Assembly (NCBI GenBank): GCA_029255845.1
Contig: JAJVLF010000001.1
Coordinates: forward strand, 1-42,908
DNA from: Campylobacterota bacterium
GTDB lineage: Bacteria > Campylobacterota > Campylobacteria > Campylobacterales > JAJVLF01
Direction of reading: 5' to 3'
DNA: 42,908 nt
Of the stretch, positions 1 through 41,495 are shown piece by piece. Position numbers and translations under genes: made by a program. Positions within the stretch are counted from its first letter, which is position 1. Each line of letters starts with the position of its first letter. The notes under the pieces were generated by a model. The model ran no database searches. It saw nothing but the letters and a program-made list of their open reading frames with translations, and was not told where the DNA came from.

Positions 1-110
1 TATGATTTGAACAAAATAATCACTTTCTAATGCCTTCTATCACCCTATCTTATGCACTTCTAATTTGCATTGGTCTCTTAATGGCATTAAAATAAAAAGG
101 AATTACAAGA

Positions 111-2177: not shown

Positions 2178-5100
2178 TTATTGTTGCTGTAATAAAGTCA
2201 ATATCATCTTTTTTGATGCATTAGCTTGTGATATAGCATAATTTCCAGCCCTCATTAATAGCTCTCTTTTTTGAAACTTCGATGTTTCTTCAGCAAAATC
2301 TATTTCTCTTATCGTAGATTCAGCAGAGATTATATTTGTTCTTTCTATATTTAGAAATTCTAATCTTTTTTCTAGCTTGACCTGATAAGAAGCCACTTTT
2401 GCTCTCATTTTTTTTATATATTCAAGAGCAGAATCTACAGCATCCATAACCAATGCAGAAGATTGCTTATGATTTACTCCTCTTATCGTAGATTCTTGAT
2501 GTAATTCATACTCTATATCGTCAGTATATCCTATACCATATAAATCTTTTTTGTTTAGATTTTTTGTAATGGCATCTCTTAGATTTAATGTAGTGGAAAA
2601 TTTTGATTTATTTAACCCAAAATCAGCATCTCCAGTTTCTATTATTAAATCACTTGACCTATCAGATATAAATGTAATATACCCTCCATATGCCCCTGGA
2701 CCACCTGGAACTAGCATAGGGTCTGGAGGGTCATTAAAATTGATTGATAATGTATTCTCTGGGAAAATTGCCAATCCTTGAGCAAATAAAGCTTTTGCAA
2801 AAGATAGAGTTATATTATTTATATCATGCTCATCAAGATGCTCTTTAGCATTCCCCTCTAAAGACATTTCTATTTCTGTATCAGATAATCTAACAAAAGC
2901 AGGTGTTAATCCTTTAGGTATATTTTTAGTTGTAACAAATGCATCTAAGTCTGTTTCATCATTAAATTTATCTCCAAATAAAGTAATTGTAACTTTATTA
3001 TCTATACTACCATCATCTAATTTACTCTCTTTAAAGCTATTGCTAAATGTAACCGTTGGGTCATTAAAGTTAATACTTACATCATTTAAATCTTTCCCTT
3101 GCACATTTCTAGCAAACAATCCTGCTTTAAATTTAAACTTTAAATCTTCTATATCAACTTTATCTGTATCATTTTGGTTTAAATGCTTTTTAGCATTTCC
3201 CACTAAAGTAGCTGTGAAAAGTTTTTTGGCTCCCTCTTCTTTTGTAAATTCAAAAGTGAGACCATCTGGCACTCCTGATACTTCTATTAAATGCCCTATC
3301 ATATGTTTAGTTTTCAATTCTTTTTTTATAGTTAGATCTTTTTCATCATGATTATTTATAGTCCTATTGCCCCCTCTTCCTTCTACCTTTACAGTGTTTT
3401 GGAAATCTTTGAATAATTTTATATTAGTCCCATCTAGCTCGGCAAATACACCACTCGTCCCATTTGCATTATTATTAATCTTAGTGATAATAGAAGTGTA
3501 AAAATCAGGACTATCTACATCAATATCTGGAATATTAACCCCATTAAAAATTAAATTATTCCCACCGCCAATAATATCTTTAATATTTTCAATAGTAGCA
3601 GTATATTTAAAATTATATGTTTGAGATAAATCATCATATTTAACTGAAAAATCAATTGATTTTTCAATAGAGCCATCATTTGCTTTTGCTTCTTCAAAAA
3701 CATTTTCTTTTGCTTCTATTACAGGAGGAGGAGGATCTTTAAAATCAACTACTAGGTTTGTAATAGGGTCTGCTTGCTGACCACTCTCAAATAGAGAGGG
3801 GTCAAACTCTAAAGTCATATCATCTAAATCATGAATATCTGCATGATTATCTGCTTGATCTACTAATTCAAATTTAATATGAGTGTTATCTATTGCACTA
3901 AAAACTGGTCTTAGCCCATCAGGAGGAGAAATTACTTTTATATTATCTTGTAAATTCGCTCCAGTAAATTTATCTCCTTCTTCCACTTCAAGAATAATAA
4001 AATTAGACATACTACCATCATTTTTATCACTTTCAACAAAGCTTCTAGTATTTACTTTAGGCGGTTCTCTAAAATTTACAATTCCATCTTCTATTATATT
4101 TCCTGATACTTTTGTATTAAATAGCTCTTGAGAAAATTCTAATCTTAAATTATCTACATCATATAAATTCGTATGCTTTACAGCAATTCCCCTTAATGTC
4201 AGTTGTATTTTATCCCCCACAGCAACAAATATAGGCTCTAGCCCACTAGGAAGGTTTGATATTGAAATCAATTTTTTTAGGTCATCACTATCTAGTCCTG
4301 CAGCAAACTTAGGAGTTGTTACCCCACCTTTTTCTAAATTTGTGATTTCTAAGAATTTTGCTCCTGTCATAGTTCCATTATTTAAAAAAGACTCCGTAAA
4401 AGGACCATCTAGTTTGACTATAGGAGCTTCTACAAAGTTAAATTCTCTTAGTATAAATTTTTCAGGAGCAATACCACTAAAAAATAACTCAGGGTCTTGA
4501 AAAATTAATTCAGGCTTAATGGATGAAGCCTCATGACTTATAGCCTTTCCTTCAAGTCTTAATTCAATTTGATTATCATTTAATAAAATAAATTTAGGAG
4601 TTAGTCCTGCTGGTAAATTTTTAACAAAAATACTATCATTTGGATTACTTGTGCCATTAAATGTGTCGCCTAATAAAGTAAATGTCGCAGGCTCACCAAA
4701 GCTACCATCATTAAAACGGCTTTCTATTAATTTATCTGTAGTAAATATCTCTGGTCTATCTCTATAATCAATAAGAATATCTTCTAAATTAGATGGAGCA
4801 ACACCATTTCTAAAAAGCTGATTACTAAATTCTATTTCTATATTATTTGCAGCATTTGCCTTAGAATGACTTTGGCTTTGCCCTAGTAATTGCATAGTTA
4901 ATTGATTTGCTTTTGTTCTAGTAAATAATGTGGTAAGCCCACTAGGAAGATTTCTAGTTGTAATTACACCATTTGCATTTGGATTAACAGAAGTAAGAGT
5001 ATCTCCAAATAAATCCAATGTAATGATATTTCTAATAGAGCCATCATTTTTAGAACCTTCTCTAAAATAATCATTATAAAATATTTTAGGGCTATCTTTA

Positions 5101-8100
5101 AAATCAATATTAATATCTACTATTTCATTAGAAGGAAGAACTTTTTGTGTAAATAAATCCGAGGTAAAGCTCACAGATAAATCTTCTATATCATTATAAT
5201 CTGTGTGATTTATCGCTTTTCCTGAAAGAGTAAATTCTATTGTAGATTCATTTTTAAATTTATAAATAGGAGTTAATCCTGCTGGCAAGTTTCCAAGAAT
5301 GATATAATTATCTAGCGATAAACCTTCTCTAAAGGTATCTTTTTCTAGTGTTAAAGTTATAGCTCCTTCCACTCCACCATCATTACTTTCTGTTTCTGCA
5401 AATCCTCCCTCATATTTAATTTCTGGAGAACCAAGAAAGTTAATTTCAATATTTCCTAATTTATCTGGCTTTATTCCACTAGCAAATATTCCTGCTCCAA
5501 GCTCTAATTCTGAGTTTTTTACACTCTCTGTTAAAGAATGATTAAATGCATTCCCTTTTAGAGTAATTTCTAATGCCGTCTCATCTATGACTCTGTATTT
5601 AGGGGTTAATCCAGCAGGAATATTAGTCATATTTGCATATAAAGAAGGGTCAGCATCTGCTTTGAAATATCCTTCTTTTAAAGTTACAGTAATAGGTTTA
5701 TCAATACTACCATCATTAGAAAAAGATTCTTGAAAGTTTTCTTCTATTTCAGGAATTGGCTTATTTTTAAAATCAAATCTTATATTTTTTAGAGAAGGTG
5801 GCTGTATTCTATTTTCAAAAAGCCTTGTATTGAATATTAATTCTATATTATTAAAATCATCAAATTCATCATGTTTTTTTGATTTACCTTCTAAATAAAA
5901 CCTAATAGATGATTTATCTGTAACAAATTTAGGAGTTAATGAATTAGGTATGCCTTTTACCTCTATGTAATTATTTGGATTTACTCTTGCAAATTTATCC
6001 CCTAATACTGATAGCTCTAAATAATCATCGGTAGAGCCATCATTTCTAGGGCTTTCCTTAAAACTACCAAAAGCAATTACTTCTGGTTCATCATAAAATT
6101 TAATATCAAGAGAAACATCATTCATAGTTTTATTATCTACAAATAAAGAAGAAGAGAAACTAAGTCTAAAAGATGCACTATCAGATGAGCCATGCTCTAA
6201 AGCCACATATTCATTTTCAGTAGGAGGAGTAGTCGTAGCATCAGCATTATCTAAAAATGAAATTAATAATTGTCTAGGATGTAATGTATTTATTTTATAA
6301 GTTGGCTCTAAAATATAAGGTAAATTAGTTCCTTTTATATTTTTTCTTAAAAATGCATTCAAAGATATTCCCGTTTCTGCATTTATCTCATCTGGATTAC
6401 CTATATTATATTTCTCTATATCAAAACTCATTCCAGAAGGTAGCTCTAGTGCTACTGTCCCTTTTACTTGACCATTATTTTCTTCATTTTCTAAGAATTT
6501 TCCACCAATATTTATAAATTCTGGTAATTCATCCACAAAAATGATATTTGTTTTATAGCTATCAAGACCTAAGGTATCTCCAGCACCACCTACAATTGAG
6601 CCTTTAAAATTTATTTCTACTTCACCTGGATGAAAAGATGCATGTTGAGGTGCAGACCCAGTAAATTCTAGGACAGCAGTATTAGCTGTTGGTCTAGTCC
6701 ATACAGCAACAAGATCCGTAGGTCCCCCTGGTTTTGATACTACTATAGGATCAGCATTAAATGTCCCATCTGTAAGCTCAAATGTAACTTGAGATGCTAT
6801 TTTCCCATTATTTGCAGCAGATTCTTTAAACTCTCCTATTTGCACAATTCTGGAGGCTTTTTTAAATTCTACCTTTACATCTACTGGCTTAGTATCTATA
6901 CCAGATTTTAAAAGATTTCCTTTTAATGTTATTGATATATTTTGATTATCTATATTTGAAGTAGCATTTCCAGTTAGCTCAACTTTTATATTTTCCCCAT
7001 CAACTATTGTTAGGACAGCAGTTAGTCCTGTTGGGACATTATCTATTATATAATCAGTATCTTTAACAAGCACTTTATTTGCTAATGCTAATCTTGCAGC
7101 CTTTATCTCTTCGCTATTTTTTAAAAGAAGATTTACAGGATTGTCTATTTTCCCATTATTAGTAGCACTTTCTTCTTTAAAAGATGTATCAGCAAGAACA
7201 TAAGCACTATCAAAAAAATCTATATGAGAGTCAAATTTCGTAGAAAATACATTTGGCTGAAAAGCTTCTCTTTTAAAACCAATACTAATATCTTCTTCTC
7301 TCAAACTATGATTAGTAGCTATACCATCTATAGCTATCGCTAAAGATTGAGTGCTAACTATAGTAAAACTTGGTGTCAATCCATCAGGAAGACTAACATC
7401 TATATAATCTTTTATATTTGTAGCAGTAAAAGAGGCTTTACCATTTTCAATCCCTAATTCTAAGGAGCCTTCAATTTTACCTGGTTCATCTGCTTTTTCT
7501 GAAAAACTAATCGTATCGGTGCTTACTGTAATATTAGGGTCCTCTAAAAAATTAATTACAGTATCCTCTATCTTATCAGGTGCTATTCCTCTTTCAAATA
7601 AAGCAGAGTTAAAGACTATTTCTTTTATATTTACATCATTAGTTCTATTAGTAGCATTTTTTGAGTAAGTAACTGTAATTTCATTAGAGTTATTTTTATT
7701 ATAATGAATATCTAATGCACTTATATCTGCACCATCATAATCTATAGTGATATTATTTTTAATAAATGTTTCAGTTAGATTATCTTTAAATTTATCTCCA
7801 TTGACTCTTAGCACTATTGATGTAGATATAGTCCCATCATTATTAGAATGCTCTGTAAAACCTCCAACACTTCCTAATGCCATAGTTGGCTTATCAGCAA
7901 AATCAATATAAGTGCTTATAACTGGGTTTGAAGGACGACCATTTTCAAATATTGCATTATCATTAATAACTAGATTTAATACCTTATCATCATTTTCTCC
8001 GTGAGCTGTTTCTTGACCTGTAATTTCAAATATTATTTTATCATTACCGCTAGTGCTTATAGTTTGGGCTGTCCCAGCAAGTCCAGTTAAATCAAAATTT

Positions 8101-9560
8101 AACTGAGTAGTGTCAAGAGTAGTGTCAAGAAGTTTACCCCCTTGAAGCTGTAATGTAACTTTTCCATCATAATGCCCATCATTAGCACTTGTTTCTTTAA
8201 AATTACTAATAGCATTAAGGTGTATTTTAGGAGTATCACTATAGCTTAAACTAAAGCCACCTACATCATCTGGAGCCACTTCTGATTTGAAAAGTTCTTT
8301 ATTTGTAAATTTAAAACCTATATTATTTACAGGATATGTAGTATCAGCTAAGGTTGGTGTAGCCACCCCTGCTTTTGGTCCAATCCTAATCTGCATATTT
8401 TTACTATCAGCACGAGAAAAATTAGCCTGTAAATAATCTGGCAAATTTGAAACTTCTATATTAGCAGAAGGATCTTTAGTTGTAAATTCATCATCTGTTA
8501 ATTGAAGAGTTAGGACATTATCATCAAAATAATTTGCAGTATTTACACTTTCATAAAAAGTTTTCCCCGCGGGAGTTATCACATTAGGTTTTGTAGATAC
8601 CCTAAAATCAATATTATAATCTAAATCTTCTTTCTCTTTAATTGAGCTATCTGTTTTAGGTATTGATGGTAATGGAGAAAAGCTCATATCACTAACTTTT
8701 ATTTTATCGCTTACAGGAAAGTCTTTTTCCGTATAGCTACTTATAGTTGCACTTGGAATTTTTAAATCTGCACCACCTGTGCTATTTTCCTTTGCTGCAT
8801 TTAGCTCTTTATTAAATGCCACTTTTTTATATACAGGTAGAGTATTGCCCTCTTTATATATTGCTCTAACTCCCGTATCTTCACTATATTTATTAACAAA
8901 ATTTGCTAAATCTACTACTGTTTTGCCAGGGGAAGTTGAGAGAGTAAAAGGAGCTAAAGTAACATCCTCATTACTAGTGCCTGTATTTTTAAAAGTAAGA
9001 CTCAAATCATCTATAAGCCTAACCCCACCATCAGTAGTCTTATAACTAGAAAATCCCATCTTATCACTAGAAGTAGCATTAAAAGAAAAATCTAAAACAC
9101 TTGAAGAGTCTTTACCTACATGAACTTTTTTATTAAAAAATGTCCCATCTAAAAGCTTTTGATTTCCAAAAGATGTTTCTTTTGCTATATTATCCAATTC
9201 TTTTAATAACCCCTCAATCTCTGTCTGTAAAGCTTCTCTAGTTATTTTACTTTGACCATCAGTAGAGGCTTGTATTGCTTTGGCTCGGATACTATCTAAC
9301 AAGATAATCTGCTGATCTAATGCCTTATCAACAATCTGAAACATAGCAATAGTATTATTAGCATTTTTAATAGATTCTTTCAAAGCCCCAGAATCACTTC
9401 GTAATCTATTAGCTTCTATAAGCCCAGCAGAATCATCGACAGCAGAATTTATTCTTATACCCGTGCTAAGTCTTTTCAAAGACTCAGAAAGAGCATTAGA
9501 GCTTACCCTAGTTGCATTCCTCGCATTTAGAGCATCAATGTTCGTATTCAAACTATACAA
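2178..9560 (-). CDS. Giant flagellin (2460 aa) with tandem adhesin-like beta repeats in the surface-exposed region
   Basis: N-term NTNIDALNARNATRVSSNALSESLKRLSTGIRINSAVDDSAGL...LDSIRAKAIQASTDGQ...SFGNQKLLDGTF and C-term ALEYIKKMRAKVASYQVKLEKRLEFLNIERTNIISAESTIREIDFAEETSKFQKRELLMRAGNYAISQANASKKMILTLLQ are canonical flagellin D0/D1. The middle has repeats of form FxES..NDGSI...ITLTL.GDTF...NLPAGLTP.F...L.G.A..H...I.F...LF..GI.P..I..I.IDFKD.P. Confidence 0.95.
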   Translation of the reverse strand: MYSLNTNIDALNARNATRVSSNALSESLKRLSTGIRINSAVDDSAGLIEANRLRSDSGALKESIKNANNTIAMFQIVDKALDQQIILLDSIRAKAIQASTDGQSKITREALQTEIEGLLKELDNIAKETSFGNQKLLDGTFFNKKVHVGKDSSSVLDFSFNATSSDKMGFSSYKTTDGGVRLIDDLSLTFKNTGTSNEDVTLAPFTLSTSPGKTVVDLANFVNKYSEDTGVRAIYKEGNTLPVYKKVAFNKELNAAKENSTGGADLKIPSATISSYTEKDFPVSDKIKVSDMSFSPLPSIPKTDSSIKEKEDLDYNIDFRVSTKPNVITPAGKTFYESVNTANYFDDNVLTLQLTDDEFTTKDPSANIEVSNLPDYLQANFSRADSKNMQIRIGPKAGVATPTLADTTYPVNNIGFKFTNKELFKSEVAPDDVGGFSLSYSDTPKIHLNAISNFKETSANDGHYDGKVTLQLQGGKLLDTTLDTTQLNFDLTGLAGTAQTISTSGNDKIIFEITGQETAHGENDDKVLNLVINDNAIFENGRPSNPVISTYIDFADKPTMALGSVGGFTEHSNNDGTISTSIVLRVNGDKFKDNLTETFIKNNITIDYDGADISALDIHYNKNNSNEITVTYSKNATNRTNDVNIKEIVFNSALFERGIAPDKIEDTVINFLEDPNITVSTDTISFSEKADEPGKIEGSLELGIENGKASFTATNIKDYIDVSLPDGLTPSFTIVSTQSLAIAIDGIATNHSLREEDISIGFKREAFQPNVFSTKFDSHIDFFDSAYVLADTSFKEESATNNGKIDNPVNLLLKNSEEIKAARLALANKVLVKDTDYIIDNVPTGLTAVLTIVDGENIKVELTGNATSNIDNQNISITLKGNLLKSGIDTKPVDVKVEFKKASRIVQIGEFKESAANNGKIASQVTFELTDGTFNADPIVVSKPGGPTDLVAVWTRPTANTAVLEFTGSAPQHASFHPGEVEINFKGSIVGGAGDTLGLDSYKTNIIFVDELPEFINIGGKFLENEENNGQVKGTVALELPSGMSFDIEKYNIGNPDEINAETGISLNAFLRKNIKGTNLPYILEPTYKINTLHPRQLLISFLDNADATTTPPTENEYVALEHGSSDSASFRLSFSSSLFVDNKTMNDVSLDIKFYDEPEVIAFGSFKESPRNDGSTDDYLELSVLGDKFARVNPNNYIEVKGIPNSLTPKFVTDKSSIRFYLEGKSKKHDEFDDFNNIELIFNTRLFENRIQPPSLKNIRFDFKNKPIPEIEENFQESFSNDGSIDKPITVTLKEGYFKADADPSLYANMTNIPAGLTPKYRVIDETALEITLKGNAFNHSLTESVKNSELELGAGIFASGIKPDKLGNIEINFLGSPEIKYEGGFAETESNDGGVEGAITLTLEKDTFREGLSLDNYIILGNLPAGLTPIYKFKNESTIEFTLSGKAINHTDYNDIEDLSVSFTSDLFTQKVLPSNEIVDINIDFKDSPKIFYNDYFREGSKNDGSIRNIITLDLFGDTLTSVNPNANGVITTRNLPSGLTTLFTRTKANQLTMQLLGQSQSHSKANAANNIEIEFSNQLFRNGVAPSNLEDILIDYRDRPEIFTTDKLIESRFNDGSFGEPATFTLLGDTFNGTSNPNDSIFVKNLPAGLTPKFILLNDNQIELRLEGKAISHEASSIKPELIFQDPELFFSGIAPEKFILREFNFVEAPIVKLDGPFTESFLNNGTMTGAKFLEITNLEKGGVTTPKFAAGLDSDDLKKLISISNLPSGLEPIFVAVGDKIQLTLRGIAVKHTNLYDVDNLRLEFSQELFNTKVSGNIIEDGIVNFREPPKVNTRSFVESDKNDGSMSNFIILEVEEGDKFTGANLQDNIKVISPPDGLRPVFSAIDNTHIKFELVDQADNHADIHDLDDMTLEFDPSLFESGQQADPITNLVVDFKDPPPPVIEAKENVFEEAKANDGSIEKSIDFSVKYDDLSQTYNFKYTATIENIKDIIGGGNNLIFNGVNIPDIDVDSPDFYTSIITKINNNANGTSGVFAELDGTNIKLFKDFQNTVKVEGRGGNRTINNHDEKDLTIKKELKTKHMIGHLIEVSGVPDGLTFEFTKEEGAKKLFTATLVGNAKKHLNQNDTDKVDIEDLKFKFKAGLFARNVQGKDLNDVSINFNDPTVTFSNSFKESKLDDGSIDNKVTITLFGDKFNDETDLDAFVTTKNIPKGLTPAFVRLSDTEIEMSLEGNAKEHLDEHDINNITLSFAKALFAQGLAIFPENTLSINFNDPPDPMLVPGGPGAYGGYITFISDRSSDLIIETGDADFGLNKSKFSTTLNLRDAITKNLNKKDLYGIGYTDDIEYELHQESTIRGVNHKQSSALVMDAVDSALEYIKKMRAKVASYQVKLEKRLEFLNIERTNIISAESTIREIDFAEETSKFQKRELLMRAGNYAISQANASKKMILTLLQQQ
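2730..8220 (-). repeat. About 16 tandem ~100-aa protein repeats inside the giant flagellin (diverged at DNA level)
   Basis: Repeat starts read by eye: FKETSANDG, FTEHSNNDG, FSEKADEPG, FKEESATNNG, FKESAANNG, FLENEENNG, FKESPRNDG, FQESFSNDG, FAETESNDG, FREGSKNDG, LIESRFNDG, FTESFLNNG, FVESDKNDG, FEEAKANDG, FKESKLDDG, plus a degenerate YESVNTANYFDDN. Confidence 0.9.
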
Positions 9561-9628
9561 GCTTAGAAGTCCTTTTCTAAATTTTTGGTATTATTTTTTA
9601 TATTACTTAACTAAGTCAAATCGGACGA

Positions 9629-10552
9629 TTAAAGCATTTCGTTAATGGATTGCTTAGAGCATATATCATATTGAATATTTTTATATATAAAAGATATATT
9701 ATTAGAATGTAGCATAAGCCTTTTTGCCCCTGTGAATTTTAATCTATCTTGATTTGAAAGATTTTTTAAAAGATAATCATTAGCAATCTTTTCATCCACC
9801 CCATATACAGGGTCCCCAAGAATAGGATGTCCTATTGAGTCAAGATGGACTCTAATTTGGTGCTGTCTGCCTGTTCTAGGAATGGCTTCTATTAATGTTG
9901 TATTATTAATATCATTATATTTGATTGGTGTGATAAAAGTTAAAGATTCTTTTCCAATAAAGTTTTTCGTGGTCATTTTGACCCTTATTGTTTTATTGTC
10001 TTTTGATATAGCTGTATTTATTTTAATTTCTTTGGATATATTTCCTCTAATAATCGCTAAATATTTTTTTACATATTTCCTATTTTCAAACATCATTTTC
10101 AATATTTTCTCAGATTTTTTATTTTTAGAAACAAGCACCAACCCAGATGTCTCCGCATCAATCCTATGCACTAAATTCGCCTCATCTCCAAAGTGATACC
10201 TGATTTCATCTAAAAGTGTATATTTAGTAGCCCTAGACACAGGATGAACCATCAACCCTGATGGCTTATCAAATAAAGCAAAATCATCCACCTCAAATAT
10301 AGGCTTCAAACCTTTAGTTTTCCCCTCAAATGTAGCAATCTCTATATACGGACATTCTAATATTTGAGAATTAACAACAACGAACCCCTTATCATCAAAC
10401 ACCCTTTTCTTAGCCAAAACCTTTTGCACCATATTCATACTCATCTTGGCTTCATTCAATAAAAATAATTGGATTTTTTGACTTTTATGGACGGGGTATC
10501 TTTTTAATACAAATGGCAATTTTATTTTTCCTGTTTTAAAAATTAACAACAC
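9629..10552 (-). CDS. RluA-family RNA pseudouridine synthase
   Basis: LVHRIDAETSGLVLVSK catalytic HRxD motif, PRTGRQHQIRVHL, GHPILGDPVYG. Confidence 0.9.
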   Translation of the reverse strand: MLLIFKTGKIKLPFVLKRYPVHKSQKIQLFLLNEAKMSMNMVQKVLAKKRVFDDKGFVVVNSQILECPYIEIATFEGKTKGLKPIFEVDDFALFDKPSGLMVHPVSRATKYTLLDEIRYHFGDEANLVHRIDAETSGLVLVSKNKKSEKILKMMFENRKYVKKYLAIIRGNISKEIKINTAISKDNKTIRVKMTTKNFIGKESLTFITPIKYNDINNTTLIEAIPRTGRQHQIRVHLDSIGHPILGDPVYGVDEKIANDYLLKNLSNQDRLKFTGAKRLMLHSNNISFIYKNIQYDICSKQSINEML

Positions 10553-15132: not shown

Positions 15133-16422
15133 TTATTTATCTCCTTTGATTATATTTAAAGTTTTTATCGTATCTATCGCGGTTTTTAGTTGAATGTCAT
15201 TATTAATATCTTTAATTGTTAATATATTTTTCTTTTTCTTCTTCTTCTTTTTCTTCTTCTTCTTTTCTTTTTTCTTTTTGCCTTTATCTAGCTTAGCTAT
15301 TTCGCCTTTGAGATGTTTTTTCAAATCTGCTTCTTTAATACTAAAGCTATTATCATCCACTCCTGGAACTTTCCCTCTTGCGACAACAATATCAGGCTCA
15401 ACACCCTTTGCTTGGATAGTTCTACCATTTGGTAAATAATACCTAGCAATAGTAAGCCTTAAAGATTCGAGCTTACTAATAGGAAGTATCATTTGCACAC
15501 TACCCTTACCAAAGCTCTTTTTACCGACAATAATAGCTCTTTTATGATCTTGCAATGCACCACTTACAATCTCACTAGCACTAGCACTTCCTTGATTAAT
15601 CAAAACAACAACAGGAATATCCTCATAAGTCCCCGAAGATGTAGCCTTAAAGATTTGATTATCTCTAGCACTTCTACCCTTTTGCGAAACAATCACACCG
15701 CTAGGAACAAATATATCTACAAGCCCTATCGCTTGATTTAAAAGACCCCCTGGATTATTCCGTAAATCAAGAACTACCCCCTCAATATCTTTAGATTTTT
15801 TTAATATTTTTTTAACTTCCTTAACTACCTTTTTATCAAAAGAAGTAACACGAATATATTTCACCTTACTATTTTCAATACTCTTCCCATAAACAGATTT
15901 TAAATTAATAATAGCCCTAGTAATCTTAAAAACAAGTGGCTTAGTCTCCCCTTTCCTCACAACTGTAATCTCAATATCCGTCCCAGGCTTACCTCTCATA
16001 AGCTTAACAGCATCATCAATAGTCATAGCAAGAGTAGATTGATCTTCTATTTTCAAGATAATATCACCAGCCTCAATCCCTATCTTAAAAGCAGGAGTAT
16101 CATCAATAGGAGAAATAATAGTCAAAGCACCATCTTTCATACCGATATGAATACCAAGCCCACCAAATTCCCCATCTGTTTTAATTTTCATCTCTTTATT
16201 TTCTTTTTCTTTTAGAAATGAAGAATGAGCATCCAAATTAGCAAGCAATCCATCTATAGATTTATCCACAATACCTTGTATTTTTATATCATCTACATAA
16301 TATTTTTCTATAATACTTACAATCCGTGTATATTTTTTCAAAGACTCAAGTCTGCTAAGCTCTTTAGCAAACAAAACCCCAGAAAACACAACACATATCA
16401 ACAAGGCATATCTTACAATCAT
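15133..16422 (-). CDS. ctpA: C-terminal processing peptidase (S41), with a poly-lysine tract near the C-terminus
   Basis: PDZ region GDIILKIEDQ, VLDLRNNPGGLLNQA, GSASASEIVSGALQDHKRA, GKKSFGKGSVQ; KKKKEKKKKKKKKKKKKN. Confidence 0.92.
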   Translation of the reverse strand: MIVRYALLICVVFSGVLFAKELSRLESLKKYTRIVSIIEKYYVDDIKIQGIVDKSIDGLLANLDAHSSFLKEKENKEMKIKTDGEFGGLGIHIGMKDGALTIISPIDDTPAFKIGIEAGDIILKIEDQSTLAMTIDDAVKLMRGKPGTDIEITVVRKGETKPLVFKITRAIINLKSVYGKSIENSKVKYIRVTSFDKKVVKEVKKILKKSKDIEGVVLDLRNNPGGLLNQAIGLVDIFVPSGVIVSQKGRSARDNQIFKATSSGTYEDIPVVVLINQGSASASEIVSGALQDHKRAIIVGKKSFGKGSVQMILPISKLESLRLTIARYYLPNGRTIQAKGVEPDIVVARGKVPGVDDNSFSIKEADLKKHLKGEIAKLDKGKKKKEKKKKKKKKKKKKNILTIKDINNDIQLKTAIDTIKTLNIIKGDK

Positions 16423-16649: not shown

Positions 16650-16854
16650 AAGAAATAAGAAAGGGGATTATACTTAAATATAATTATATTACCCTTATAA
16701 AATTAATAAATCCATATTTTAATCATTTTTTAAATATGAAATGTAGTTTAAAAAATGAAAAATTTTGTTTTAGTTAATGCCTACCCTAAGTTAATGCTTG
16801 TGTGCTTTAGTGATGGAGTTATGTTTTATCGTATTAATTTAGCTTATTATTTTA

Positions 16855-17787
16855 TTAATTATTAATTGATGATTGATGATTGATATATCCTTGTATCTCC
16901 ATAAAAACATCATCACTTATTTGGATATCTAAGTCAATAGTAAAAATTTTATATTCCAAATTTAAATCTTTTAATTTTACATAATCTTTTGTCGTGCAAA
17001 GTATTGAATTAGAATTATGTTCTTGGCATATATTGACTATATCTTCTTTTGAGAATAAGCTATGGTCTGGAAAGTATATTTTTTTAATTTCTTTATTTAA
17101 AAAAGAATCTAATCTATATGGTTTTGATATGGAGGTGATTAGGATTGTGTCTTTTTCTATTTTAGGTATTTTTACTTTTCTTTTGTAGTCTATGTTTTCT
17201 TGTAAGATTAAATTTGCTTGTTTTTTTACGAATGAAAACTCTCTCATAGCTCCACTAGGGAATAATCTTTTGTTTTTAATGTCATTTGACTCTAATAATA
17301 TATCATATTTTTCTATATTGCTTTTGGAAAATCCATCATCAAGGAAAATGTATTTCGCACCCATTTCTTTAGCTTTATTAATTCCATTAATTCTATTTTC
17401 TGAAACTATTACAATGCTTTGTTTTAGTGAAGTAGCATAAAGCATTGCTTCATCTCCACTGGTTTTGCTATCACATAATATATTATTATTGTGATTGACT
17501 ATGACTAATCCTTTGGATTTTCTTTTGTATCCTCTTAGTATGATTGCTGTGTTTTGTAGGTTTAATCTTTTTATTAATGATATAAGAAATGGTGTTTTTC
17601 CGCTTCCTCCTAATGAAATATTTCCAATACTAATAATGGCTATATCGTATTTTATTTTAAATAAACTAAGAATAATTCTCTTGATTAAAGATATGCTCGC
17701 ATAAAGAAGCGATATGGGATATAGTAAAAAGGAAATTAATTTTTCTAAGGGTGAGCTATTTATAAACAAATAATGCTCGATTTGCAT
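16855..17787 (-). CDS. lpxK: Tetraacyldisaccharide 4'-kinase
   Basis: ISIGNISLGGSGKTPFLISLI P-loop, AIILRGYKRKSKG, DEAMLYA, FLDDGFS. Confidence 0.92.
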   Translation of the reverse strand: MQIEHYLFINSSPLEKLISFLLYPISLLYASISLIKRIILSLFKIKYDIAIISIGNISLGGSGKTPFLISLIKRLNLQNTAIILRGYKRKSKGLVIVNHNNNILCDSKTSGDEAMLYATSLKQSIVIVSENRINGINKAKEMGAKYIFLDDGFSKSNIEKYDILLESNDIKNKRLFPSGAMREFSFVKKQANLILQENIDYKRKVKIPKIEKDTILITSISKPYRLDSFLNKEIKKIYFPDHSLFSKEDIVNICQEHNSNSILCTTKDYVKLKDLNLEYKIFTIDLDIQISDDVFMEIQGYINHQSSINN

Positions 17788-17809
17788 TATTTGTTTATTG
17801 AGTTTATTT

Positions 17810-19285
17810 TTAGTTATCAGGAGACCATTCTCTAAATTTAATGCTCGTAGGAAATGCTTTTGGTTTCAATATGGATTTATGGCTAATAACTCTTAAGCAT
17901 TCTTGGATACCCTCACTCATACTAGGGTGAGGATGGACTGTTTTAAGCATATCTTTTAATCTTGTCCCACTATCAATATGTGCTGCTATAAATATAGTCG
18001 CTGCATTTGATTGTGGTCCAGCTGCTCTCATTCCTAGAATTAATGGATTTTCTTCATTTGTGGTTATTATTTTAAAAAATCCACTAGTAGCTCTCATAGC
18101 TATAGCACGAGGGATTATCGCATGGCTATATGTGATAACTTTATATGCTATATTTTTTTGTTGGCATTCTTGCTCTGTAAGTCCTATACAAGAAATCTCT
18201 GGCTTGAAAAACATAATAGTTGCCATATTTTGGTATCTTAGAGGATGATGTATTTCAGATTGGATAGCTTTAGCAGCAAATCTTCCCTCCATTTCTCCTA
18301 CATTAACCAATGCCATATGCCCAGATATATCTCCAATAGCATATATTCCCTCTCCTGCCTTACAAGAGTCATCTACCTTAACTAGTCCTCTATCTGTAAT
18401 CTCTGCATCCGTATTTTCTAATCCTATATTAGAAGTATTTGGAACCCTACCAATAGAAATCAAAATATTATCAACCACAATAACCTCAGTATGACCATCT
18501 TCATAATCAAGAACCACATCAATATGAGTCTCTCTATCATATATTTCTCTAAGAGTAACTTTATGATGTATTCTTACTCCTATATCTGTCAGCTTTGAAT
18601 CCACATAATCGCTAACATCCTCATCCTCAAAAGGCACAACTCTATCTCTTGAATCCAACACATGAACTTCAGTTTGTCCAAAATTAGCAAAAATAGTAGC
18701 AAATTCACATCCTACGATACCAGCACCGATAATTAATATTCTCTTAGGAAATTTATCTAAATTAAATATATGATCAGATGTTATAATTCTTTTCCCATCT
18801 ATTTTTAATAAAGGATGTTCTCTAGGAGTAGAGCCTGTCGCCACTACAAAGTTATTTGCTACAACTTCAATATCTTCATTTTCTCCTCTATCTACGATGA
18901 TTGTTTTATTATCTTTAAATCTAGCAAATCCTCTTAAAAGAGTAACACTTCTATCTTTCCCTTCTTTTGAGCAAGTTTCTATTTGCGACAAAAGATGATA
19001 CTTTCTTTCATCAGTAGCTTTTGTAACAGTGGTTTTCACCTCATCAAAACTAACAGAAACACTAGAAGCTCTAAATCCTCTGTCTGTTCTAACAGCATTA
19101 GCATAATCATTTGATAGTTCCCACATAGTCTTAGAGCTTAAAGCCCCATTTTCTATACCTGCACCACCCATACTGTCGCTCTCGACAATAAGCACACGAT
19201 TTCCAAAATCATAAGATCGCATAGCAGCAGCAAAACCAGCAGGTCCTCCACCTATAATACATACATCATATTCTTTCTTTTCCAT
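17810..19285 (-). CDS. Dihydrolipoamide dehydrogenase/SthA-like flavoprotein lacking the active-site disulfide
   Basis: DVCIIGGGPAGFAAA FAD site, ILIIGAGIVGCEFATIF NAD site, YAIGDISG, HPHPSMSEGIQE; GGAGIENGALSSKTMWEL replaces GGTCxNxGCxPSK. Confidence 0.85.
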   Translation of the reverse strand: MEKKEYDVCIIGGGPAGFAAAMRSYDFGNRVLIVESDSMGGAGIENGALSSKTMWELSNDYANAVRTDRGFRASSVSVSFDEVKTTVTKATDERKYHLLSQIETCSKEGKDRSVTLLRGFARFKDNKTIIVDRGENEDIEVVANNFVVATGSTPREHPLLKIDGKRIITSDHIFNLDKFPKRILIIGAGIVGCEFATIFANFGQTEVHVLDSRDRVVPFEDEDVSDYVDSKLTDIGVRIHHKVTLREIYDRETHIDVVLDYEDGHTEVIVVDNILISIGRVPNTSNIGLENTDAEITDRGLVKVDDSCKAGEGIYAIGDISGHMALVNVGEMEGRFAAKAIQSEIHHPLRYQNMATIMFFKPEISCIGLTEQECQQKNIAYKVITYSHAIIPRAIAMRATSGFFKIITTNEENPLILGMRAAGPQSNAATIFIAAHIDSGTRLKDMLKTVHPHPSMSEGIQECLRVISHKSILKPKAFPTSIKFREWSPDN

Positions 19286-19348
19286 ATTTTTTTCCTTGAT
19301 AGTTTATGTGTAGTTAATCGTATTTAATACAATATCCTATACTATTTA

Positions 19349-19840
19349 TTATGAATTACCATCTGATTTATTATAAATACCCTCTTCTTTTCTTATTGGC
19401 TCAGAGCTATGTGCTAAACTAGGAGTAAATATTTTCTTAACGATTGACTTAAAGCCCTTTTCATTTTCCTCATATTCTTTTTCTGCTTCTTGCAAAGAAG
19501 CCTCCCAAGCTGAAGCAAAACCAGGAGCTGTAAGAGTCATCTTTCGTAATGCCCCATCATAGATATTTAAAAGCCTAATCTCAGCACGACCAGGCTTCTG
19601 ACCCAATGTATTTACCGAAACTCTTAAATTCTCATTCTCTTTTTTAAGTTTTTCTAAATCCAATTCTAAGCTTTTAGACCCCTCAGCAGATATGCTCATA
19701 TGCCTATTCAAATGCTCCTTAAAGCCTTTTATATCTTTTTTATGTCTTCTAACCTCAAACCTAGATTTTACATAGCTCCCAAACCAGCCAGTAATAAAGC
19801 TAGCGATTATTATTAATATTCCTTGATAACTTAATTCCAT
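19349..19840 (-). CDS. Hypothetical single-TM coiled-coil protein
   Basis: N-terminal TM GILIIIASFITGWFGSYV, then Lys/Glu-rich coiled coil. Confidence 0.6.
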   Translation of the reverse strand: MELSYQGILIIIASFITGWFGSYVKSRFEVRRHKKDIKGFKEHLNRHMSISAEGSKSLELDLEKLKKENENLRVSVNTLGQKPGRAEIRLLNIYDGALRKMTLTAPGFASAWEASLQEAEKEYEENEKGFKSIVKKIFTPSLAHSSEPIRKEEGIYNKSDGNS

Positions 19841-19867
19841 ATAATTCCTTTTGTGTTTAATTTAATG

Positions 19868-20422
19868 TTAAAATGAGATAATCTCATCATAAACAACTTC
19901 TAAATGATTAGCATTTTGAGTCAATAAAAATATACCCTCATTTTTAGCTTGACGAATAATTTCATCATTAGTAATCATACTAGCTATACCAAAATAATAT
20001 GTATAGTCCTCATATTCAGGATAGTCTATTTTAAAATGCTGTATCTTTTTTTGTATTAATGGTTTAATATCTTTAGGATGTGCTTTATTTTTTACTTCCA
20101 CTATTGCTATGGTGTTTCCATTAATTAATATAATATCAAACTCTACATTTTTACTTGTTTTTCTAACATTTCTTTCTATCTCATCAAATTTTAATTTTCC
20201 TAATGTTTTATCTTTTTCTAAACTTCTATAAAAGTATTCTTCTGCTACTTCTCCATAGTTCCCTAAAAAACCATCCCATTTTTTATTTGATTTTGATTGT
20301 TCGTTTTTAAGTTCTTGAATTTGCTCACTTGTTGCCACTTGTAATTTTTTAATTTCTTCACTATTCTTTTTAGATTCTACTGCCAAAGAAGAAACTAAGT
20401 TTTTCAATTCTTCATCTGTCAT
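19868..20422 (-). CDS. PD-(D/E)XK nuclease-like accessory protein, paralog of ORF 111-662
   Basis: VEFDIILINGNTIAIVEVKNKAH core (D, ExK). Confidence 0.7.
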   Translation of the reverse strand: MTDEELKNLVSSLAVESKKNSEEIKKLQVATSEQIQELKNEQSKSNKKWDGFLGNYGEVAEEYFYRSLEKDKTLGKLKFDEIERNVRKTSKNVEFDIILINGNTIAIVEVKNKAHPKDIKPLIQKKIQHFKIDYPEYEDYTYYFGIASMITNDEIIRQAKNEGIFLLTQNANHLEVVYDEIISF

Positions 20423-24325: not shown

Positions 24326-25498
24326 TTAAGATTTTCTAATCGTAGCCTTTACATAATAATCATCAAACTCAAATTCTATATCAGGATTTTTATTTTCTTT
24401 TAATTCATTCTTTGCTATAGCGACCCCACTACCAAATCGCTCCACTTTTCCTAAGTTTTTCATAGCATTTGATATGACAGTATTTCGATACACTGTTCGT
24501 TTTGGAAAATTCTCTTTACTCGCAGGGAATTTTAATCCACCAGGGCTTTTTATCTCTATCCTATCACTAAACCAATAAATCCTAATCATATCACTAATGC
24601 TGTAATCTCTATGCATTATGGCATTAAAAATTAATTCTCTAATTGCCAAAAATGGATAATCAGATTTCTTTTTTAAAGTGCTAGTTTCTTGAATTAATAT
24701 TTGCTTTATATTAATTTCTATTAAACCCTCTACTCCTCTTAATATTTTTGATAAATCTCCCATTAATACTTTCTCATTGCCTATTTTGCTTCTATCTAAT
24801 AAATCAGTAGAATCTATACTCAAAAATAGCACTTTCGCCTCAGGGATATATCTTTGTGGGTCTTTCCCACATACTAGTATCCCTCCATAAGTAGGGTGTT
24901 TAGTAATTATATTTGCAAAAATAGGAGCTGAAAGCTTTTCTAAAAAGCTTCTATCATTATTTTTAATGATCTCCTTGGAAACAAATGATTTTTGATACAC
25001 CACAAAAAGCTCCTCATCTATATCATCAATAGAAGACATCTCACAATCACTAGAATCAAAAGAAACATTTTGAAAATTCTCTAACACTTTCTTAATCTCA
25101 AAATTATCAGCTTCTCTAGTAGTGCTACCAAGCCTAATATACATTTTCTTATCATAAAAAGTAGGCAAATTAGATGGCTTAACTTCTATAAGAATAACTT
25201 CATTTTCACCTATTACATTTGTATTTATTGTTATTTTTGGCTTTGGAGATACTTTCCAATCATTTATCCAATTACTAATTTTCTCTTCATCTTTTTTAGA
25301 GTTTTTATACCCACTAAGATTGCCATTATCATCTAGCCCTATTATAAAAACTGCTACTTTTTCTTTATTACTAAAATCATTAGCAAAAGCACATATAGTT
25401 TTAAAAAGTTTTTCTCGAACATTATCATTAAATTCTCTTTTAAATTCCAGCTTCTCAGATTCCTTTTGATTTAAGTATTCTTTTATATCCTTATTCAT
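24326..25498 (-). CDS. Schlafen AlbA_2-domain protein with C-terminal HATPase-like region
   Basis: ESEKLEFKREF...ICAFANDFSNKEKVAVFIIGLDDNGNLSGY, RLGSTTREA, RELIFNAIMHRDYS, NLGKVERFGSGVAIAKNEL. The ORF track starts at TTG 25504; the ATG at 25498 is more likely. Confidence 0.85.
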   Translation of the reverse strand: MNKDIKEYLNQKESEKLEFKREFNDNVREKLFKTICAFANDFSNKEKVAVFIIGLDDNGNLSGYKNSKKDEEKISNWINDWKVSPKPKITINTNVIGENEVILIEVKPSNLPTFYDKKMYIRLGSTTREADNFEIKKVLENFQNVSFDSSDCEMSSIDDIDEELFVVYQKSFVSKEIIKNNDRSFLEKLSAPIFANIITKHPTYGGILVCGKDPQRYIPEAKVLFLSIDSTDLLDRSKIGNEKVLMGDLSKILRGVEGLIEINIKQILIQETSTLKKKSDYPFLAIRELIFNAIMHRDYSISDMIRIYWFSDRIEIKSPGGLKFPASKENFPKRTVYRNTVISNAMKNLGKVERFGSGVAIAKNELKENKNPDIEFEFDDYYVKATIRKS

Positions 25499-28034
25499 CT
25501 TCAAGTTCTTTATCCATACCCTCTATAAATTTTACAATATTTTTAGAAGCATTTGATATAGGATTTAATGCTTGACTTGCTTTATCTACGAATTTAGCCA
25601 CTTTAATCACTCTGCTTAAAATTCCTTGCTTTTCAGCTTTATCTACTTCTGATGTATCTTTAATATCTTTATACTCAGCTACTAGCTTGGATATTTCTTT
25701 AATATCTTTTTTTACTTTTTTATATTCTTCACCATCTAAATTTTCTCTTTCTATATCATAATGTAGCTCTTCCATTTGGTTTTTAAATTTTACTAAACCT
25801 ATTTCTATATTATTATTTATCGTAATCTTAATTTTTGAATCTCCTATATGGACATCCCCATTAATTATGAACATATTTTGAGTTGCCTCTTTATCTGAGA
25901 AACCAAATATATCTTTTAGTTTATTTGTAGATTTTTCTACACCTTTCATAGTAGGTATATTTTCTTTATTTTGCACGACACCTTGAATATATTGATCATA
26001 AGCATATTCATTAGTCTCCTCTTCCAGCAAAGAATTAAATTTTAAATTTTGATAACTTTTCCCAATAAGCTCTGTAAGTCTAAGTCTAAGGCGAGTTAAA
26101 TATTCCCCTTTATCATCTCTCCAAACCTGCATATGAATAACTCTTTCATTTTTCTTAAGCCTAATTATAGCTTTTCTATCTCCCCAAGATAAATAAGCCC
26201 CTCTTTTCCATATATTATCCCCCTCAATCTCATCTCCGCATAAAGTAAGAAAATTATAAAAAAGAGCATCAGGCAATAAGTGAGGCATAGATGACTTAAA
26301 AATAACAGATACCCCTTGAGGTGTATCAAAAGTAGGTCTACTTTCTTGTGCTATCATAGGAACTCTATATTTATTATCTTTATGTTTATAAGCTAAATTA
26401 AATTGAACCAATATATCCAATAATGCTCCAAATTTATCATCAGCCACTTCTGGAGCATCAGAATAAACTTTTCTATTAAATATATCTTTTAATTTTTCTA
26501 CAGTTAAAAAGCTACTCTCATTATTTTTAGCACTTCTATTTAGCATATAATATATAGTCTCACTCAACCAAGTAGGATTAAGTATATACCAATTAGGGTC
26601 AATATGCTTAAAATGTAAAGCCACACCTAATTGATCTAATGCTTTTGCTACAGATTCTTGCATCCCCTCATCTATAATACCAGAACTTATTGCAAAGTCT
26701 ATATATGATTTTTTGTCTATACTATTTGTGTTTTCTTTTAATTTTTCTTTTAATTTTTCTTTTAAATTAAATTGCTCTTTTGTTATTTTATTATTTTTGA
26801 TTGTTTCATATATCAATGTATGCAATTTATCTTTAACTTTTTTAAGCCCTATATCTTTTTTACAAGATAGATTAAAAAAACCTTTAACAAAAGGATAATA
26901 TTCTTGTATATCATCCATATCAAAAGGCATAGGAGTTTGCATATCTTGTAGTTCATCTACTCTATTTTGCACGATAATAGTATCAGAAGAATTTCCAAAC
27001 AACCTCACATGCTCTAACCAGTATTCAATAAGCTCTCTCTCATCCGCTTCTCTAGCTCTTATCATAATAATATAAACACATTTATCTCTTAAAAATAAAC
27101 TATGAGAAGAATGTAAAAATACCTGCCCTCCAAAATCCCAATAATGAACATTAATTGTTTCATCATTAATAATGCTCTTTTTTTCTCTTATTTCAACTTT
27201 TGGTGTTGGCTCTTCATCATCTTTAATTTTTTCATCAAAAAACCTATGAACCAAAGATGTCTTACCTACATTTCCATGACCTAGCAAAATAACACGGGCT
27301 TCTGCTGTAGCTTGAAGAGAATCATTATCGACTTTTAAATGCTCCATAGCTAAAGACATATCATTATCTGCTTCTAAAAGCTCTTGGGGTAAATTAAAAC
27401 ATCTATCTAGTTTATCACTATCAAATATTCCTTTTAGCCAGTTTTTATATTCTTCCACCCAATAGGAAAATCCTATATCATTTAAATCATTATAGAATTT
27501 ATTTATAAGATTTTCATCTTGTGTTAATGTAATTTCTTTCCAAATTAAGTCTTTTTTATCTTGTATCAACTTTATATCATTATTCATATTTGAGAGAAGT
27601 TCATTTTTCGATGTATCGTGGGCAGAGTCATAGTTATAGGCAGAGGTATCGGCATAGTCATAGGCATAGGCAGAGGCAGAGGCAGCGGCAGAGGCAGCGG
27701 CAGAGGCAGCGGCAGCGACAGAGACAGAGACAGAGACAGAGACAGCGGCAGCGGCAGAGACAGAGGCAGCGGCAGCGGCAGAGACAGAGGCAGAGACATG
27801 AGTAGAAGAATAAATAAATTTATTCTTCTGATAAGATCTTATAGCTAAACTTAAAGCTCTAAAAATAGAAAATAAATGTTTTTTGTTATTGTTTCCCCAA
27901 TATGAAAAGCTATGAGCATTATAACTAAGCATAGGTAAAACCCTCAATGCACAACGAAGAGAAAAGTGAACTACTTTTTTTCTACTTAAAGGTTCTAGTA
28001 TTTTCTCAATTTCATTTCTTTTTAATTTTTTCAT
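25491..28034 (-). CDS. Roc-COR GTPase (bacterial Roco-like) with Ala/Ser/Tyr-rich N-terminal domain
   Basis: ARVILLGHGNVGKTSLVHRFF P-loop, HYWDFGGQVFLHSSHSLFL switch II, VQNRVDE, then a COR-like region (HFKHIDPNWYILNPTWLSETIYYML...). Confidence 0.85.
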   Translation of the reverse strand: MKKLKRNEIEKILEPLSRKKVVHFSLRCALRVLPMLSYNAHSFSYWGNNNKKHLFSIFRALSLAIRSYQKNKFIYSSTHVSASVSAAAAASVSAAAAVSVSVSVSVAAAASAAASAAASASAYAYDYADTSAYNYDSAHDTSKNELLSNMNNDIKLIQDKKDLIWKEITLTQDENLINKFYNDLNDIGFSYWVEEYKNWLKGIFDSDKLDRCFNLPQELLEADNDMSLAMEHLKVDNDSLQATAEARVILLGHGNVGKTSLVHRFFDEKIKDDEEPTPKVEIREKKSIINDETINVHYWDFGGQVFLHSSHSLFLRDKCVYIIMIRAREADERELIEYWLEHVRLFGNSSDTIIVQNRVDELQDMQTPMPFDMDDIQEYYPFVKGFFNLSCKKDIGLKKVKDKLHTLIYETIKNNKITKEQFNLKEKLKEKLKENTNSIDKKSYIDFAISSGIIDEGMQESVAKALDQLGVALHFKHIDPNWYILNPTWLSETIYYMLNRSAKNNESSFLTVEKLKDIFNRKVYSDAPEVADDKFGALLDILVQFNLAYKHKDNKYRVPMIAQESRPTFDTPQGVSVIFKSSMPHLLPDALFYNFLTLCGDEIEGDNIWKRGAYLSWGDRKAIIRLKKNERVIHMQVWRDDKGEYLTRLRLRLTELIGKSYQNLKFNSLLEEETNEYAYDQYIQGVVQNKENIPTMKGVEKSTNKLKDIFGFSDKEATQNMFIINGDVHIGDSKIKITINNNIEIGLVKFKNQMEELHYDIERENLDGEEYKKVKKDIKEISKLVAEYKDIKDTSEVDKAEKQGILSRVIKVAKFVDKASQALNPISNASKNIVKFIEGMDKELEDE
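27640..27800. repeat. Hexanucleotide-type degenerate tandem repeat (GGCAGC/GGCAGA/GACAGA) inside the Roco ORF
   Basis: Directly read: ggcagaggcagaggcagcggcagaggcagc...gacagagacagagacagagacagcggcagc. Confidence 0.92.
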
Positions 28035-36866: not shown

Positions 36867-37726
36867 TTATTTATTATTTTTTCTCAACTCACTAATAGTA
36901 TCTATAGATAAACCTGTCTTTAAAGATATAGTTTCATTATCTAAAACATCTAAGAGGTTTTTGTTATTTGGATGTTTCTTTTTTCCATACCTTGCTTTCT
37001 CCCTCTCTCAAGCCTATCTTCAACAGCAGTCTCAAACTCATTCAATCTTTTACCTTCTTGCATACTCACATAATCATATATCTCTAACTCTTTCTTATTC
37101 CAGTTCATCATTAAAGCAGTATCAAATGCAATATCAAACTCTTTTATATTTTCATATTCTACTGGTATTAAATCAAAGTTTTCTACATTCTTTATAAAGT
37201 AAATCCATTTCTTTGATAGGCTATTACATTCTTGTAGTTTTAAGTTAAATTTATCTAATTCTATGAAGTTAAATTCAAAGTCTTTTAGTTCTTGTTTGTA
37301 TGTAATATTATCCATAATAAGATGTTTTGACATATAGCTTTTAGTATCAAAGATAGCAAAGTTTAATATTCCTATAAAATATACTTTTTTTAATTTATTA
37401 TAGTTTTCTGATTTTTTTATTTGATTAACATAAGACTTAGATGTATAGTATAAGCTTCTTTTAGCAAAGTTTTTATCTTTTTCTATTTGCATTTCTACTA
37501 TAAATTCTTCATTATCTTGATTTAATGCTTTTATATCTAATATAGTATTTTTCAAATCTTTTATTTGAGGAGTTTGATATGGGTTTAATATAATTACTTT
37601 TTTAATTTGCTTATTATTTTTAAATTCTAATATAGAGTTTAGAAAAGATATTAAAACTTCTGTTTTATTCTCATCACCGAATATCTTTTTAAATACTAAG
37701 TCATCTTTTGGGTCTGCGAATTTCAT
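36867..37726 (-). pseudogene. Rpn/PD-(D/E)XK nuclease-family transposase, frameshifted near the C-terminus (ORF track 36950-37726)
   Basis: FADPKDDLVFKKIFGDENKTEVLISFLNSIL start, DIKALNQDNEEFIVEMQIEKDKNFAKRSLYYTSKSYVNQI. The next frame encodes NLLDVLDNETISLKTGLSIDTISELRKNNK*, a typical family C-terminus. Confidence 0.75.
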
Positions 37727-37941: not shown

Positions 37942-38006
37942 ATAGGGAACCTCTATTAATTCAAAATAAATAGCTAATATTATTTGAATTAATAGAGGTT
38001 CCCTAT
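37942..38006. repeat. Perfect 24-bp inverted repeat
   Basis: ATAGGGAACCTCTATTAATTCAAA-N17-TTTGAATTAATAGAGGTTCCCTAT. Confidence 0.9.
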
Positions 38007-40780: not shown

Positions 40781-41495
40781 CTTACAAGCGAAAAATATAG
40801 AAAAGTTTTATGGGAATAAAAAAGTTATTCACGATATAAGCATAGAGATAAATTCAGGTGAGATTGTAGGTTTGCTTGGTCCAAATGGGGCTGGGAAAAC
40901 TACTATGTTTTATATTATTTGTGGGTTATTGAAATCTTCTAAGGGGGAGATTTTTATTAATGATGATGATATATCTAATATGCCATTTTTTGAAAGAGCT
41001 GAAATGGGGATTGGGTATTTGCCTCAGGAGGCTTGTATTTTTAGGGATTTATCTGTGGAAGATAATCTAAATATCGCTGCTGAAATATCAATACAAAATA
41101 AAACCTTAAGACATAAAAAAATAGAAGAAGTTTTAAGTATATTTAAAATAGAGCCTATAAGAAAGGCATTAGGAAGCTCTGTAAGTGGGGGAGAGAGAAG
41201 AAGAGTTGAGATAGCTAGAATGATGATTGCTAATCCTGAGTTTTTATTATTTGATGAGCCATTTGCTGGTATAGACCCTGTGAGTGTGCATGATATAAAA
41301 GATGTGATTAAGGGGCTTTCAAAAGATAATATCGGAATGCTTATTACTGATCATAGTGTTCGTGATATTTTGGATTTATGTGATAGAGTTTATGTGGTGC
41401 GAAATGGTTATATTATCGTCAATGGGACTACTGAAGATGTTTTAAATAATGAAATAGTAAAAGAGCATTATCTTGGAGATGACTTTAATCTATGA
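40773..41495 (+). CDS. lptB: LPS export ABC transporter ATP-binding protein
   Basis: GLLGPNGAGKTTMFYIICG, GIGYLPQEACIFRDLSVEDNL, SVSGGERRRVEIARMM, LLFDEPFAGIDPVSV. Confidence 0.95.
   Translation: MGSLQAKNIEKFYGNKKVIHDISIEINSGEIVGLLGPNGAGKTTMFYIICGLLKSSKGEIFINDDDISNMPFFERAEMGIGYLPQEACIFRDLSVEDNLNIAAEISIQNKTLRHKKIEEVLSIFKIEPIRKALGSSVSGGERRRVEIARMMIANPEFLLFDEPFAGIDPVSVHDIKDVIKGLSKDNIGMLITDHSVRDILDLCDRVYVVRNGYIIVNGTTEDVLNNEIVKEHYLGDDFNL

Follow-up and report, generated by a model that had tools for sequence, protein, structure and literature searches.

The window analysed here, i.e. the whole stretch of 42,908 nucleotides from position 1 to 42,908 of contig JAJVLF010000001.1 (assembly GCA_029255845.1, Campylobacterota bacterium, an uncultured relative of Campylobacter), was found to contain a complete giant flagellin gene, in which 16 tandem repeats, predicted to be Ig-like, occupy the position that the D3 domain holds in ordinary flagellins, and whose product is about five times as large as a normal flagellin. 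Fragments of still larger proteins with the same repeat were identified elsewhere in the genome.

By employing Pfam and NCBIfam searches together with alignments to the ordinary flagellins of the same genome, we could assign both ends of the protein. The first-pass annotation had described one unbroken reading frame of 7.4 kb with flagellin termini, without stating the strand, and this was borne out: the frame lies on the minus strand and holds 2460 codons without an internal stop, with GC contents per codon position (0.43/0.35/0.14) that are typical of coding DNA, while Pfam placed Flagellin_N (PF00669) at aa 5-140 (E=4e-33, 114.9 bits against a cut-off of 26.6) and Flagellin_C (PF00700) at aa 2372-2457 (E=1e-14, 55 bits against a cut-off of 23). 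A Flagellin_IN match (PF07196, aa 187-241, E=6e-4) stayed under the curated cut-off. The top NCBIfam models were flagellin A/B of the Campylobacter/Helicobacter type (~1e-78), with FlgL reaching only 1e-11, and the top-scoring solved chain was 9ygu, a flagellin of 508 aa (E=9e-61 over aa 2-235). The ordinary flagellins of the genome match the giant at 32-45% identity, both over aa 1-235/246 and over its last 90-165 aa, where the alignments start at aa 2295, 2323, 2361 or 2371 and end at 2458. Between these shared ends, the ordinary flagellin on contig C20 has ~100 aa and the giant ~2060 aa, the array thereby falling at the D3 position in the alignment, and it is this central insert (array at aa 346-2277) that brings the protein above 1000 aa. 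No signal peptide or T9SS/T1SS sorting ends were found on the giant, both ends of which are flagellin domains according to Pfam, and the HExxH metallopeptidase domain of flagellinolysin (NF033876) was absent among the NCBIfam matches of the full protein.

Features of the giant flagellin gene and its upstream region, with window positions, strand and residue numbers.
Feature	Window position	Strand	Residues (aa)	Basis or remark
Complete giant flagellin gene	2178..9560	(-)		2460 aa, 270.5 kDa, pI 4.7, no cysteine, TTG start
N-terminal D0/D1	9051..9560	(-)	1-170	PF00669 and solved flagellin 9ygu
D2 start common to ordinary flagellins	8811..9050	(-)	171-250	weak Flagellin_IN match
Linker	8526..8810	(-)	251-345	no family match (Pfam, NCBIfam)
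16 predicted Ig-like repeats	2730..8525	(-)	346-2277	iterated HMM and structure models
Repeats 1-8			346-442, 454-556, 568-672, 686-784, 796-900, 911-990, 1022-1157, 1167-1266	
Repeats 9-16			1276-1376, 1387-1489, 1499-1601, 1612-1710, 1721-1831, 1841-1942, 1955-2167 (split), 2176-2277	
Insertion of ~80 aa within the 15th repeat	3339..3575	(-)	1996-2074	no Pfam family
C-terminal D2/D1/D0	2181..2708	(-)	2285-2460	PF00700 and alignment with ordinary flagellins
Likely ribosome-binding site AAAAGGA	9570..9576	(-)		9 nt upstream of the TTG start
Sigma-28-like promoter TAACGAAA-N11-TCCGATTT	9618..9644	(-)		84 nt upstream of the start codon

The repeats were delimited with an HMM that was seeded with six hand-picked units and then iterated (103 positions). 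It gave 17 hits on the giant (E 6e-6 to 2e-30, aa 346-2277), which correspond to 16 units because the ~80-aa insertion splits one of them; what had been noted earlier as about 16 copies of a ~100-aa unit was thus refined to 16 units of ~103 aa. Since the aligned repeats are only 22-34% identical to the reference unit at the protein level, and the longest exact DNA repeat within the reading frame is 16 nt, the array appears to be old and diverged and not the result of assembly collapse. AlphaFold models of one and of two units, built from window sequences only, reached a pLDDT of 87.2 and 87.5, respectively, and consist of all-beta domains with about seven strands each. In Foldseek, the nearest solved domain to the single unit was found in the surface chitinase ChiW (TM 0.59, E=0.012), while the two-domain model matched Ig-type tandems (best E=8e-5, with low overall TM). 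These models predict an Ig-like beta-sandwich without a close solved relative. At the sequence level, the repeat had no match among the curated Ig-like families of Pfam or NCBIfam and none in a PDB sequence search, and a PHROGs search gave nothing significant. The repeats themselves aside, no binding domain was identified in the giant. What is defined here is a bacterial surface repeat without a model in Pfam or NCBIfam.

Among the named genomes, relatives of the repeat were found in proteins of Bacteroidota whose reading frames stay open over as much as ~3700 aa (loci L061-L071), which agrees with the earlier placing of this repeat type in very large bacterial surface proteins. Further matches were a T9SS-sorted protein of Flammeovirga and plasmid proteins of Brevibacillus. 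Judging from their sequences, the relatives are secreted surface proteins of large size, for the most part from Bacteroidota; an HMM of flagellin ends identified none in the Bacteroidota loci examined, and a scan of the full-length giant against the named genomes found no relative. Across ~400 sampled Campylobacterales genomes, the repeat was confined to the source genome and two further ones, which encode it in smaller proteins of 318 and 651 aa with apparent signal peptides, and none of the sampled genomes yielded another array within a flagellin. The possibility raised at the outset that the unit is a mere D2/D3 domain of normal-size flagellins was checked with the repeat HMM, which did not match the ordinary flagellins of the source genome and its relatives (best E ~0.5). 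This identity is ruled out, as the repeat is missing from ordinary flagellins, is Ig-like in prediction and has its relatives in large surface proteins. The proposed flagellin-adhesin chimera, on the other hand, stands as an architecture, with flagellin D0/D1 and D2 start (aa 1-235 and ~2295-2458) flanking an array of surface-protein repeats. That the array stems from a phage or a plasmid was also considered and rejected, with no phage match and two plasmid records (a T9SS-sorted protein and a hypothetical protein). In the source genome, the repeat occurs outside flagellins as well, i.e. as one weakly matching copy in a subtilisin-like serine protease (C238, locus L027, 4152-6338, plus strand).

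The source assembly (2.22 Mb in 265 contigs, 96.7% complete) harbors Flagellin_N in eleven places, namely six ordinary flagellins (502-540 aa), the window gene, two giant-type N-terminal fragments truncated at contig ends (C91 and C64), and two divergent places (C236 and C208). In C64, Flagellin_N is followed by a repeat-like start at the end of the fragment. The largest array protein, on C186 (locus L022), runs open for 4801 aa, starting at the edge of the contig and closing with Flagellin_C, and has 37 repeat hits, some of which are halves of split units; the mass of this fragment alone is 525 kDa. A 1915-aa fragment with repeats on C240 (L024) also has a Flagellin_C end, while C169 (L023, 12.5 kb, 4163 aa) and C38 (L025, 4.5 kb, 1492 aa) are open from end to end and carry the array. 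As C186, C169 and C38/C240 are colinear, with ~38-50% identity, they seem to represent two or three paralogues. The contig breaks are situated at or near stretches that two copies share without mismatch (69 and 47 nt for C186/C38, 45 nt for C186/C240). The N-terminal and C-terminal pieces may belong to the same larger giants. A full-length flagellin with the C186 end would have to include at least ~240 aa of N-terminus in addition and would therefore be longer than 5000 aa; by this reckoning, at least one flagellin of the source genome would approach or exceed 5000 aa and have a mass above 0.5 MDa.

Together, the five array proteins comprise 14,831 codons without a stop and 14,831 aa without a cysteine, and the identity between paralogues at codon positions 1, 2 and 3 (~0.55/0.65/0.50) indicates coding selection. 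Cysteine makes up 0.92% of the 31 other proteins in the window and is also missing from the six ordinary flagellins of the genome. This poverty is not specific, however, and the argument is weakened, because most repeat-bearing Bacteroidota proteins are also low in cysteine (0-0.16% in six out of eight). The proteins of C186, C169 and C38 have extra non-repeat insertions of ~100 aa within repeats (e.g. C186 aa 1215-1335), which belong to no Pfam family; that they are Flagellin_IN domains found no Pfam support. A common downstream gene behind two of the giants was likewise rejected, as the two proteins are not similar. Near the largest giant, C186 encodes a TPR protein of 1110 aa with a glycosyltransferase family 9 domain (16659-19991, minus strand), which is a candidate for flagellin glycosylation. 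Near the giant end on C240, an LPP20-type lipoprotein is found beside a protein with a weak caspase-like match (8004-10316, minus strand).

In trees of the flagellin ends, with the C208 row as FlgL-like outgroup, the giant ends were placed among the flagellins and distant from that row, which together with the NCBIfam scores rules out that the giant is FlgL or another hook-associated protein. The giants formed one group in the C-terminal (97/95) as well as the N-terminal (91/85) tree, although this grouping may be through long-branch attraction. Their D0/D1 branches are long (0.7-2.3 changes per site), and the assembly properties of the giants may therefore have changed. Among relatives, no flagellin-like reading frame near giant size was found, either in the 20 that were fully listed or among the top-scoring matches from 250 genomes; the longest had 846-976 aa, with FlgL probably accounting for the longest of the weak matches. 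Accordingly, the array was probably acquired and expanded in the source lineage, suggesting that a flagellin acquired a surface-protein repeat, followed by expansion and duplication. An assignment of the organism to Thiovulum, a fast swimmer with threads and stalks, was considered but found no support, since the genome encodes DnaA and MreC, whereas a comparative study reports the Pfam families of both as missing from all six Thiovulum genomes (PMC9938260).

The promoter assignments are based on short motifs in the sequence. We take the site upstream of the window giant to resemble the sigma-28 consensus. The window has a single match to its pattern, TAA-N17-CCGAT, and this falls precisely at the promoter of the giant, with 0.78 occurrences expected on both strands of 42.9 kb, and by proportion ~0.0015 sigma-28-like sites would be expected in 160 nt. 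Similar motifs were also found upstream of the ordinary flagellin genes on C79, C218 and C193. The giant-type N-termini of C91 and C64, as well as the ordinary flagellin on C68, have a sigma-54-like GGWAT-N5-TTGC at most 70 nt from the start, for which the chance expectation is 0.67 on both strands of the window. Sigma-54-like promoters are the class of early flagellar genes in this bacterial group. The gene rpoN is located in the window (41492-42766).

The reading that we consider probable is that the giants are true flagellin subunits, which are exported and build or decorate filaments with an Ig-like brush, most likely with a role in contact or adhesion. The D3-like surface part would have been replaced by some 2000 aa, i.e. 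16 tandem Ig-like domains of an adhesin-type family. The giant gene would be transcribed with the flagellar regulon, and its product would be exported unfolded via the flagellar export channel and polymerise via its D0/D1 ends, probably mixed with the six ordinary flagellins or in segments between them; as these six are present, a mixed or segmented filament is thought more likely than one made solely of giants. Each subunit would then show a loop of 16 domains, giving a brush or coat round the filament, with a reach of at most about half the length of the loop because the chain leaves and returns to the core. The most likely job of such a coat would be contact, e.g. attachment to other cells, to matrix or to surfaces. 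The two or three larger relatives would carry this plan further, and two giant-type N-termini have sigma-54-like promoters. We infer export, assembly, coat geometry and adhesion from the sequences, adhesion being suggested solely by the repeat family. Given the giant and its still larger relatives in one genome, the flagella of this organism probably have a thick, possibly adhesive coat. More tentatively, some flagella may be composed of subunits of 270 kDa to >0.5 MDa, with a core that mainly carries the adhesive coat, as in a 'bottlebrush', and might serve as a non-propulsive cell-to-cell or cell-to-surface fibre. We regard this as possible but doubtful; if true, the subunits would be the largest flagellins described.

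It is also conceivable, though unlikely, that the giants thicken or stiffen the propeller, with effects on drag, wavelength or protection, and that the repeats are mere spacers without an adhesive role. Known giant flagellins do give thicker filaments, for which a mechanical role has been proposed (PMC6248924), and volume arithmetic gives a diameter of 32-52 nm for a filament filled with the window protein and of 45-78 nm for one filled with the larger giants; the repeat, however, derives from a surface-protein family and not from flagellin D2/D3, and the organism has kept its six ordinary flagellins. A rather unlikely alternative is that the giants are no filament subunits, their ends being only a tag for export and anchoring, in the manner of a HAP or of FlaB close to the hook, or serving to release a giant adhesin of the cell surface or the matrix via the flagellar export apparatus. 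Non-filament proteins can, as is generally known, be secreted by the flagellar apparatus, and both the strong divergence of D0/D1 and the sigma-54-like promoters upstream of the two other giant-type N-termini would fit; yet both D0/D1 halves are retained, in order and nearer to flagellins than to FlgL, where the N-terminus alone would suffice for a tag. Lastly, adhesin repeats mis-joined to a flagellin through an assembly or annotation artefact are very unlikely on the sequence evidence, since, although this is a draft of 265 contigs with the larger paralogues broken at or near identical stretches of 69, 47 and 45 nt, the window gene is open over 7.4 kb with no exact repeat longer than 16 nt, the independent contigs C186 and C240 share the same repeat-to-Flagellin_C junction, and C64 goes from Flagellin_N to a repeat-like start.

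Giant flagellins and domain-insertion flagellins are already known. In 2017, UniProt had 92 PF00669 entries above 1000 aa, and the giant flagellins of Bermanella marisrubri (1020 aa) and Oleibacter marinus (1190 aa) build filaments that measure 30 nm or more, compared to 24 nm in Salmonella (PMC6248924). Like these Domain-Extension giants, the window giant has flagellin D0/D1 ends, a large and partly duplicated central insert, a length above 1000 aa and an expected thickening of the filament. It is, however, twice as long (2460 aa, with a paralogue of ~5000 aa or more), the repeats belong to a surface-protein family and number from 16 up to at least 30, compared with one or two there, and giant and ordinary flagellins are found in one genome. 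In flagellinolysin and other domain-insertion flagellins (PMC5595980, PMC7643111), a foreign functional domain likewise takes the place of the surface region, but the giant has no metallopeptidase match and instead carries structural domains of adhesin type in a long tandem array. The giant repeat proteins of Bacteroidota (the T9SS-sorted Flammeovirga protein and L061-L071, up to ~3700 aa) are of the same family, FxE..NDGSI..NLPAGLT..LxGNAxxH, but flagellin ends were seen in none of the loci examined. FlaA/FlaB of the Campylobacter/Helicobacter type are the best family match for both giant ends, and the occurrence of sigma-28-like together with sigma-54-like promoters within the flagellin set of the source genome is a further likeness; unlike the giant, they have ~500-580 aa and no repeat array. 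In the open-access literature, our searches turned up neither a flagellin of such size nor one that carries adhesin-type repeats in tandem, and the 270 kDa of the giant, and 525 kDa for the fragment of its relative alone, are to be compared with a range of 26 to 115 kDa in a review (PMC8306008). The giants provide a test of how large a cargo can pass the flagellar export channel and be accommodated in the D0/D1 lattice, and offer a natural path from propeller to adhesive organelle.

Other features of the window include a bacterial Roco protein with Roc GTPase and COR-A/COR-B domains (25491-28034, minus strand), whose gene has a tandem array of the hexamer GGCAGA/GGCATA (27621-27795), and a transposase of the PD-(D/E)XK nuclease family (36950-37726, minus strand). 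Adjoining the latter is a dispersed repeat of 30-40 nt (~37944-37983), further copies of which lie near 15251-15414 of C186 and, on C91, upstream of the giant-type N-terminus. Furthermore, a simple TTC/TTTTTC repeat (15227-15285), which may vary in length, encodes a long run of lysines close to the C-terminus of a protein that resembles carboxy-terminal proteases (15133-16422, minus strand).
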